A stretch of 64,000 nucleotides of DNA from Fibrobacter sp. UWB11 (GTDB lineage Bacteria > Fibrobacterota > Fibrobacteria > Fibrobacterales > Fibrobacteraceae): NCBI RefSeq assembly GCF_900143015.1, contig NZ_FSRT01000003.1, forward strand, positions 248,001 through 312,000. The letters are read 5' to 3'. The stretch's first letter is position 1, and every line of letters starts with the position of its first letter. The translations under genes were made by a program, and so were the position numbers. Below the pieces are notes generated by a model that made no database searches, was not told where the DNA came from, and saw only the letters and a list, made by a program, of their open reading frames with translations. This document shows positions 22,935-47,953 of the stretch, in pieces.

Positions 22935-23046
22935 GCGACATTCGCCTTACCAGCTTTGCGCAGGCGCAAGACTCTGCGCCTCGGTCATGCCGGCAAGCAA
23001 GCTTGCCGTCGCGACTCTCGGCTTACCAGTCTTTGGCAGGGCGGAC
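22935..23046. repeat. Imperfect duplication of the 3' end of the adjacent gene
   Basis: The segment 22935-22970 resembles 23011-23046 (shared GCGAC..TCG.CTTACCAG.CTTTG, about three quarters identical). The second copy contains the last codons and stop of the 23023-23736 gene; the first lies beyond the stop and keeps a TAA at the equivalent place. Between them lies a 41-base segment (22980-23020) that has a relative at 44807-44847. Confidence 0.55.
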
Positions 23047-23736
23047 TTGGCCGCGGACGGGTTTCCAAGGCTTGCGTTCGCCGTTTTGTTCGTCAAAGTC
23101 CTTGAGGAGCTGGGCAGCTTCTTCAGGAGTCAACTCACCAGGCGCAAGCGGCTGCGGTTGTTCTTGATCGGAACCGTTGCTATCGCTGGAATTGCCTTCG
23201 GACTGTTCGGGCTGTTGCTGTTCACCAGAACCGCCATTGCTATCGGAACTTTGCTGTTGGCTGTCGCTAGATTGACCATTCTGACCTTGATTCTGTTGAT
23301 CCTGATTTTGGTCATTCTGGGCGCTAGAAGAACTCTGGTCACCATTTTGATTCTGGTTCTGATCCTGATTTTGGTCCTGATTATTTTGGTCTTGATTCTG
23401 GTCGTTCTTAGGATCGTTTTTCTTATTTTCGTTCTTCTGCTCATCCTTCGCTTCGTGAATGCGATCGAGGAGCATCTGCAATTTTTGATCGTTCGGATAA
23501 TATTGCAAGCCTTCGTTACAAGTAATTTCTGCAGTAGGCAAACGATTTTCAATATACTGGAACGCAGCATCGCCATAGTATGCAGAAGCCGACTTCGGAG
23601 CCGCGAATGCAACCACCGCAAAAAGCAATACAAAGCCCAACGCTACAGAGATCCTTCGACTCCGCCTAACGGCTCCGCTCAGGATGACACAATTCTCTCG
23701 TCTCTCGTCTTTCGTCTTTCGTCTCAGCATAGCCAT
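23023..23736 (-). CDS. Exported Q/N-rich TPR-like protein (BatC-like), with repeat-derived N-terminus
   Basis: A 237-residue protein. GGAGGTGA lies just before the ATG, and the upstream stop and this start share one base (TAATG), so the start at 23736 is well supported. The signal-like hydrophobic stretch (ALGFVLLFAVVAFA) begins only at about residue 33. The 30 residues before it are encoded by a heptamer array and by a copy of the dispersed palindromic repeat (residues about 17-28). A TPR-like unit (residues about 50-85) is followed by about 90 residues almost wholly Gln, Asn, Asp and Ser. Together with the upstream TPR gene it resembles BatC-type proteins of Bacteroidota-like aerotolerance loci; that is inference and no VWA-domain genes are adjacent. 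Confidence 0.75.
   Translation of the reverse strand: MAMLRRKTKDERRENCVILSGAVRRSRRISVALGFVLLFAVVAFAAPKSASAYYGDAAFQYIENRLPTAEITCNEGLQYYPNDQKLQMLLDRIHEAKDEQKNENKKNDPKNDQNQDQNNQDQNQDQNQNQNGDQSSSSAQNDQNQDQQNQGQNGQSSDSQQQSSDSNGGSGEQQQPEQSEGNSSDSNGSDQEQPQPLAPGELTPEEAAQLLKDFDEQNGERKPWKPVRGQVRPAKDW
23651..23688. repeat. Dispersed palindromic repeat, copy inside a coding region
   Basis: ATCCTTCGACTCC, a short variable part, then GGCTCCGCTCAGGATGAC. The same ends occur between genes at 47824-47874 and in related form at 34220-34314. Here the copy lies in frame near the 5' end of the BatC-like gene. Confidence 0.75.
23694..23725. repeat. Heptanucleotide tandem array near a start codon
   Basis: Four 7-base units (TCTCTCG twice, TCTTTCG twice) plus a partial fifth, encoding residues about 4-14 of the BatC-like protein. 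Seven is not a multiple of three, so gain or loss of a unit would shift the reading frame. Confidence 0.8.
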
Positions 23737-30252: not shown

Positions 30253-31528
30253 TCATGTCCGCGTGGTCGCTTGCGGCCATCATCTCGCGAATGCTGTGCA
30301 TGCTGAGCATGGGTTCGCCGATATCGACCGTCGGTATTCCGAGATTTGCAGAAACCGTCGGGCCCACCGTACTGCCACACGGCATGTCGTTTCGCGTGAT
30401 GAATACCTGCAACGGGATTCCCGCCTTTTCGCATAGCAGGCGAAGCTGCGCAGAACTCATCAAGTCACTCGCGTAACGCTTTTGTGCGTTAGTCTTGAGC
30501 ACAATGCCCTTGCCCAACAGCGGGGCGTGATTCGGTTCGTACTTTTCCGTGTGGTTCGGGTGTTCCGCATGGGCCATGTCGATAGAGAGCGCGATGGACT
30601 CTGCAAGCGTTGACGAGAGAGGCGCTTGGGCCCTATCGTGCTCGCGCACTCCAGGGTGACAGTCATTCTGGAGCGAAGCGATAGAATCCAAAACACTTTT
30701 CAAGAAATTGCCAGCAGCTCCTTCGCGGGTGGTAGAACCGACCTCTTCGTTATTGAAGAAGCAAGCCACAAGGCAATCGTTTTCAGCCGACTTTGCACCC
30801 ACAATCGCTTCGGCAATGGCATGGCAGCTGCTCAAGTTATCGAGCCTTCCCGAATAAATCCATTCATCGTTAAACCCGCCACGATTTGCAGGCTGGGCAT
30901 CGAACAACTGCACATCGAAATCTATCAAGCGCGCCTCTGCAGGGAGTTCCTTTTCAAGCGCCTTCACAAATAAGTTCTTGCGATTTTCAGAAGCGCTACA
31001 ATTCGAAGCGCCCGCCCACAACGCATTAAAATCTATTTGCGGATTCACCTTGAGGCCATCCTGATTCACACCACGATTCAAGTGAACTGCCAATTGCGGA
31101 ATCCTGAAAAGTTTTTCACCGCGGAACAACTTCGTTTTGAGCGTTTGGCCATCAGCTGCATCCACATAAGCAAGCATGCCCGCATATCCCAAGTCGCGAT
31201 CGAGCCAGCTCGTGTAAAGCGGAGAACCGTAAACCTCCGTATGGAGCGTACAAACGCCCGCATTCATGCCATCTGGATTCGGGGAAATCTTGAGCGTCGG
31301 GAAATCCGTATGCGCAAGTGCAATCCTGAACTTTGAAGCCTCGCTCCATGCTTTAGGCGTGCGGAAAGCTATGATAGACGCGCCACGGCACACGAAATAC
31401 GCTTTTCCAGGTTCAAGAGCGCTACCACAATCAAAATTGGCAAAGGAATTCTCTCTGAAATACGATTTCAAAGCATCCACCGTATGGTACGGAGTTACTG
31501 CAGTATTCAAAAATTCAAAAAATTCCAT
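30224..31528 (-). CDS. M18 family aminopeptidase
   Basis: A 434-residue zinc aminopeptidase. Start ATG 31528 is preceded by GAGGAAAT; an in-frame ATG ten codons earlier lacks this. Metal-site motifs: LAHTDFPTL near residue 83, SGRLDNLSSCHA near 220, FNNEEVGSTT near 255, IDMAHAEHPN near 305 and the C-terminal HSIREM. All are intact, so the enzyme should be active. Between the NEEVG helix and DMAHA the loop contains residues encoded by two inverted copies of the dispersed palindromic repeat (about 20 residues including SIASLQNDCHPG). That loop varies in length in the family. M18 enzymes release N-terminal Asp/Glu or hydrophobic residues. Confidence 0.92.
   Translation of the reverse strand: MEFFEFLNTAVTPYHTVDALKSYFRENSFANFDCGSALEPGKAYFVCRGASIIAFRTPKAWSEASKFRIALAHTDFPTLKISPNPDGMNAGVCTLHTEVYGSPLYTSWLDRDLGYAGMLAYVDAADGQTLKTKLFRGEKLFRIPQLAVHLNRGVNQDGLKVNPQIDFNALWAGASNCSASENRKNLFVKALEKELPAEARLIDFDVQLFDAQPANRGGFNDEWIYSGRLDNLSSCHAIAEAIVGAKSAENDCLVACFFNNEEVGSTTREGAAGNFLKSVLDSIASLQNDCHPGVREHDRAQAPLSSTLAESIALSIDMAHAEHPNHTEKYEPNHAPLLGKGIVLKTNAQKRYASDLMSSAQLRLLCEKAGIPLQVFITRNDMPCGSTVGPTVSANLGIPTVDIGEPMLSMHSIREMMAASDHADMIKLVEALFC
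30629..30689. repeat. Inverted pair of dispersed palindromic repeats inside the M18 gene
   Basis: CCCTATCG...CTCCAGGGTGAC (to 30660) is followed at 30663 by TCATTCTGGAGCGAAGCG and ATAGAATCC in reverse orientation. The halves match the intergenic copies at 34275-34314 and 47824-47874 and could pair as a hairpin. The whole lies in frame in the M18 coding region. Confidence 0.65.
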
Positions 31529-34219: not shown

Positions 34220-34314
34220 TCATTCTGAGCGAAGTGCGTAGCACGTAGTCGAAGAATCCATCAAGTAAAGCCCTGGATCCTTCCCCTATCGCTACGCTCC
34301 AGGGTCAGGATGAC
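34220..34314. repeat. Inverted pair of dispersed palindromic repeats, intergenic
   Basis: TCATTCTGAGCGAAGTGCG...GTCGAAGAATCC (34220-34259) is mirrored by GGATCCTTCCCC...CTCCAGGGTCAGGATGAC (34275-34314). It fills the gap between pyrF and the anchored protein gene and could fold as a long hairpin ending pyrF transcription. Confidence 0.75.
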
Positions 34315-47652: not shown

Positions 47653-47953
47653 TTTCTATCCACTTTAAATATTCAACTACTTTTTACACATTCATTTTAA
47701 CAAATCAATATACAAAAATTCGTTTTTCCTACAAAAAAGGCGATGCCGCAACAAGTGCGGCATGACAAAGCAGCAGGAATATGTATGACAAAGTCAGCGC
47801 GGTGGCCGGCATGTCAAGTCACTGGATCCTTCGACTTCCCCTATCGCTACGCTCCAGGGTTCGCTCAGGATGACACCTTGCAAAGCATCCTCGATTTACT
47901 TCGACAAGCTCAACACAGGTCGCGAGGATAGCTGCTTAGGATAATGTTCGAGA
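47653..47953. other. Longest gene-free stretch; holds repeats
   Basis: Contains an AT-rich 5' part that may hold the lipoprotein promoter, a 7-pair hairpin at 47743-47763 (ATGCCGC/GCGGCAT) and a copy of the dispersed palindromic repeat. No plausible gene was seen. Confidence 0.7.
47824..47874. repeat. Dispersed palindromic repeat, full-length intergenic copy
   Basis: GGATCCTTCGACTTCCCC, TATCGCTACGCTCCAGGG, then TTCGCTCAGGATGAC. It shares both ends with 23651-23688 and the centre with 34275-34314 and 30629-30689, so it serves as the reference copy. Confidence 0.75.

Follow-up and report, generated by a model that had tools for sequence, protein, structure and literature searches.

In-frame palindromes in proteins are known mainly from Rickettsia. 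As described in the available parts of PMC3767692 and PMC2229807, the elements RPE-4, RPE-6 and RPE-7 are short palindromes inserted in frame in conserved housekeeping genes, at solvent-exposed sites and with an ATGAC motif, and their types differ among orthologues. RPE-1 (Ogata et al., 2000, as cited in the same parts of PMC2229807 and PMC3767692) is likewise inserted in frame in protein genes, and differs in being longer (105-146 bp) and in that the same group occurs at similar orthologue sites. In the available part of PMC3767692 every orthologue examined carries an insertion at the site, so that a hotspot and a single origin are inseparable in Rickettsia, and a single old, diverging insertion is argued there for RPE-4, RPE-6 and RPE-7. 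The CGTC-tagged REPs (Di Nocera et al., 2013; PMC3733652) have stems of 8-9 bp and loops of 4-5 bp. In the available text of that paper, the CGTC-1 and CGTC-4 repeats are equated with RPE-6 and RPE-4 and intragenic copies are listed, recB of two Xanthomonas species is given as the one case of differing REPs at nearly identical positions, and the name Fibrobacter does not occur.

The stretch of DNA analysed here, referred to as the window (64,000 nucleotides), holds a comparable insert in a gene for an M18 aminopeptidase (Table 1). The preliminary description had placed a head-to-head repeat pair in frame in this gene, and this was borne out: the REP pair (30629-30690) codes in frame for residues ~280-300, between the NEEVG and DMAHA motifs. 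Element 1 reads GTCATTCTGGAG...GATAGAATCCA on the plus strand, and element 2 reads GTCACCCTGGAG...GATAGGGCC on the minus strand. Element 1 was identical over 29 of 29 nt to an intergenic copy in the source genome (G000:C2:674902-674930), and the pair as a whole had a 91% match at C1:1166270-1166322 of the same genome. The loop region was predicted to fold in the mRNA as a hairpin of -31.8 kcal/mol (z -3.36; equalled by 1 of 200 shuffles), and element 2, taken alone, was also predicted to form one (-14.7 kcal/mol; z -1.95).

Table 1. Coordinates, strands and attributes of the features in the window.
Feature	Position	Strand	Remarks
M18 aminopeptidase gene, host of the insert, 434 aa	30227-31528	minus	Pfam PF02127 and NCBIfam NF002759
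REP element 1, B type, 3' half of the head-to-head pair	30662-30690	plus	Codes for residues ~280-289 (LDSIASLQND) on the minus strand
REP element 2, B type with ACCCT/AGGGC stem ends	30629-30660	minus	Codes for residues ~290-300 (CHPGVREHDRA); REP grammar scan
Whole loop region	30618-30700	minus	Pair forms a single long hairpin in the mRNA (predicted fold)
Intergenic composite, B-type core within A-type REP	47825-47874	minus	
Intergenic composite, B-type core within A-type REP	34276-34314	minus	
A-type REP at the boundary of two genes	23650-23688	minus	Overlaps 5' end of predicted minus-strand ORF 23023-23736

By their sequence, the Fibrobacter repeats resemble CGTC-tagged REPs more closely than any other known kind of repeat, in tag, AT pair and tail, and depart from them in the lengths of stem and loop. 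The GTC tag (CGTC/TGTC in PMC3733652, in its available text), which in CGTC-tagged REPs is unpaired and placed at one end, agreed loosely: among 30 genome copies many had TGTC or CGTC and others AGTC or GGTC, and in the M18 pair element 2 has TGTC and element 1 AGTC. The AT beside the tag, which pairs with an AT ahead of the tail in CGTC-tagged REPs, was present as GTCAT...ATC in most listed copies and was partly changed in element 2 (GTCAC...GCC). The short, unpaired tail of ATC-CCA type was found as ATCCA in many copies, including the end of element 1, and as ATCTA in others. Both groups also have head-to-head pairs, which predominate among CGTC-tagged REPs and are seen here in the M18 pair and a CobA-HemD pair, and in both the elements are mostly intergenic, lie in frame within genes in some cases, and have no dedicated transposase. 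In contrast to the stems and loops of CGTC-tagged REPs, the outer stem of a typical Fibrobacter REP is short (ATCCT/AGGAT) and interrupted, and its centre is long and variable (~10-40 nt), often with a nested hairpin.

The likeness to the Rickettsia in-frame palindromes drawn in the preliminary description holds because CGTC-tagged REPs include RPE-4 and RPE-6. The traits listed above for RPE-4, RPE-6 and RPE-7 recur in Fibrobacter, where solvent exposure is predicted from a structural model. The likeness is one of mode and not of membership; the organisms belong to different phyla. Unlike the Rickettsia orthologues examined, Fibrobacter has insert-free orthologues within the same genus.

Purifying selection acts on the M18 gene, which is intact. 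The ORF, taken with the longer start, matched Pfam PF02127 with E 2.2e-111, and the protein scored 450.7 bits with NCBIfam NF002759 (cut-off 356). The source genome (3.76 Mb, 9 contigs, completeness 100%) has named relatives in the gut-bacterial genus Fibrobacter (best identity 86%), and M18 orthologues were present in 49 of 60 relatives. The metal-site motifs were conserved in all 35 rows of the orthologue alignment, in agreement with the intact family motifs noted earlier. Excluding the loop, dN/dS was 0.063-0.101 in all 7 M18 pairs, so the gene is constrained with the insert present or absent. An AlphaFold model of the protein (mean pLDDT 75) matched M18 structures; in it the insert starts in the last part of helix 274-287 and continues into a low-confidence loop (pLDDT 54 for residues 291-300), with the next helix at 304. 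Solved M18 proteins are shorter than the Fibrobacter protein at this position. Since the loop is modelled with low confidence and placed after the helix that follows NEEVG, it is probably surface-exposed and tolerant.

Alignment with insert-free orthologues, as had been suggested at the outset, placed most Fibrobacter orthologues in the insert-free group. The same residues were sought in distant genera and not found among the 6 class-level outgroup orthologues retained for the tree, which had a short loop of different sequence. The M18 tree was built without the loop from 60 rows (54 Fibrobacter, 6 outgroup), after leaving out L069 (partial) and six further class-level orthologues, L111, L112, L113, L115, L116 and L117 (missed by the motif search). 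REPs of types A, B or TGC were found in the loop of 10 of the 54 distinct Fibrobacter rows and a PNSE-type repeat in 5, and the remaining 39 had neither label. The 10 REP carriers were rejected as one clade (p-AU 6.3e-6), as were, by the AU test, the 3 A-only carriers and the 5 PNSE carriers as groups; these p-values serve as a guide, because the groups were named after the loops had been seen. The parsimony minimum was 6 changes for REP presence and 11 for type; both counts depend on the gene tree, in which some forks are open.

Matches of at least 40 bits to non-orthologous DNA were found for 16 of 59 distinct M18, 8 of 16 LigA and 4 of 8 CoaBC loops, and for 0 of 220 control stretches taken from these genes; the library contains stretches picked for A or B half-sites, which makes loop matches easier, and the controls were searched against the same library. 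With a fuller, alignment-based extraction, matches were found in 9 of 22 LigA loops (L202 omitted as too short; no frame was usable for 1 of the 24 loci) and in 13 of 30 CoaBC loops. Outgroup genomes, whose linker is just 8-9 residues long, make up 7 of these 30 CoaBC rows. Many of the CoaBC matches are to one repeat, intergenic in L063, and may reflect a single old insertion. LigA and CoaBC were picked because the source genome has a REP there, a choice that does not account for the differing repeats in other species. With different repeats in the same loop of related species, the M18 loop looks like a recurrent repeat-to-protein site.

A GAATTC-rich tandem repeat (PNSE[LF]RTPNS) fills the M18 loop in two distant clades (L037 and L065; L034, L101 and L104), and is elsewhere intergenic (e.g., L055 8098-8131). 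A GAGACGA-type intergenic repeat was also found within coding loops, in LigA of L185 and in the M18 loops of L025 and L031.

Third positions of L030 and L055 differed at 1 of 40 in the M18 loop vs 182 of 381 elsewhere, and those of L006 and L007 at 2 of 45 vs 107 of 401. Other pairs compared, e.g., L005 and L006, had no such contrast between loop and rest. The nearest relatives in the L030/L055 clade were without the insert at an exact site. Near-identical loops in otherwise diverged genes suggest exchange between species, and exchange of a short tract would fit because the identity of L006 and L007 also runs over non-REP loop sequence; alternatively, constraint at the nucleotide level could keep such loops alike.

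The half-site pattern GTCATYCTGRRSS occurred 136 times in the source genome and its reversed pattern 0 times; counts were 12-261 in the 36 Fibrobacter relatives searched vs 0-33 in 23 genomes from outside the genus. The profile seed proposed in the preliminary description (47824-47874) proved to be a composite, with an A-type REP enclosing a B-type core. Another REP lay inside 4 of 95 outer elements, among them the intergenic copy that is identical to element 1 over 29 nt. The A-type consensus had 4 of 6 frames open by direct reading, and the observed peptides fit those frames. For the ORF overlapped by the A-type REP in Table 1, the true start may lie downstream of the repeat.

A B-type core inside an A-type REP was also observed in L003 and L099, and in L003 a third inverted repeat is split around the composite, with one half on either side. 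For 79 of 102 elements on contigs C1 and C2 of the source genome, REP orientation tracked the sign of the GC skew (binomial p 2e-8). A switch occurred near 1.25 Mb of C1, and REPs tended to come after the 3' end of a gene in their own orientation.

With the stem grammar, applied to the window and 35 M18-centred loci (720 kb), 31 REPs were found, of which 9 passed the test for in-frame coding. Each of these 9 lies in the M18 loop; a tenth REP, in L035, failed on the flank score only. In the source genome, 102 elements were examined around 95 of the 136 pattern places (the listing covered 100 places, 5 of them unfetched, and the other 36 were unlisted). Eleven were flagged in frame and 7 accepted in 6 genes: aminotransferase (two), CobA-HemD, ABC ATPase, LigA, HrpB and CoaBC. 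NCBIfam hits were above the cut-off for LigA, CoaBC and CobA, and the names of the aminotransferase, ABC ATPase and HrpB come from hits below it. L125 and L134 were dropped as being without a REP 3' half, and L081 (end of frame) and L172 (doubtful ORF) were flagged and left as unsure, outside the accepted 7. The CobA-HemD fusion (L123) had three separate repeat-like in-frame inserts (504-560, 969-1019 and 1494-1571), one of them a head-to-head pair like that of M18.

It is likely, in our assessment, that an intergenic REP-type palindrome pair entered the variable loop of this housekeeping aminopeptidase, and that the loop has been reused and sometimes exchanged. The loop is most likely a tolerated, repeatedly used landing site. 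Repeats would be copied from elsewhere in the genome into the loop and, since they are open in four of six frames, some insertions would keep the frame and survive. The loop would be used again because it is tolerant, and loops would at times be swapped between species via short recombination tracts. As REPs nest in each other, a REP already inside the gene might be the landing site for the next one.

A RAYT transposase as the mover was unsupported. Y1_Tnp (PF01797, RAYT family) was not found in the source genome and was present in 20 of 61 genus genomes; its presence had no link by eye with repeat counts in the 37 genomes covered by both searches, and 3 of 4 RAYT-like loci of relatives were without the REP pattern within 1.5 kb, with the pattern near the remaining one.

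One ancient insertion in the ancestor of the genus, diverged by descent into the different loops, is quite unlikely. Some inheritance is certain, because the F. succinogenes clade carriers L005, L006 and L007 have the first element in common, but the REP carriers were rejected as one clade, the loops match distinct genome repeats of differing types, and the closest relatives of L030 and L055 are insert-free at an exact site. It is unlikely that selection retains the element because it works in place, whether by tuning expression through an mRNA hairpin or through a function of its peptide: most orthologues have no insert, the carriers differ in sequence, and the near-identical tract of L006 and L007 reaches non-REP loop sequence, even though the pair folds as a strong predicted mRNA hairpin and constraint would also give the near-identity of the L030/L055 and L006/L007 loops.

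Chance similarity or an assembly or gene-calling artefact is highly improbable. Several relatives are metagenome assemblies, but the source genome is complete and in few contigs. Chance, pseudogene and artefact were rejected on the 29-nt copy, the half-site count against its reversed control, the intact frame with dN/dS below 0.11, and the control stretches with 0 of 220 matches.

No description of a Fibrobacter in-frame repeat case was found in the open-licence literature, judged by titles and abstract openings. In-frame REPs as such are already known; what is new is the repeated use of one loop by different repeats. A broader reading, put forward tentatively and at somewhat less than even chances, is that the M18 loop and the comparable LigA and CoaBC loops serve as permanent gateways, by which intergenic repeats of several unrelated families become protein again and again across the genus. 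Older repeats would be the landing sites of newer ones, and completed loops would pass between species along recombination tracts of very short length. On this reading, the turnover of repeats would be a principal origin of new sequence in the loops of these enzymes. With many species, several repeat types in one loop and insert-free orthologues, a hotspot and a single diverged insertion can be directly tested against each other in Fibrobacter, and the M18 loops of the genus offer a natural series for how intergenic DNA turns into tolerated protein sequence.
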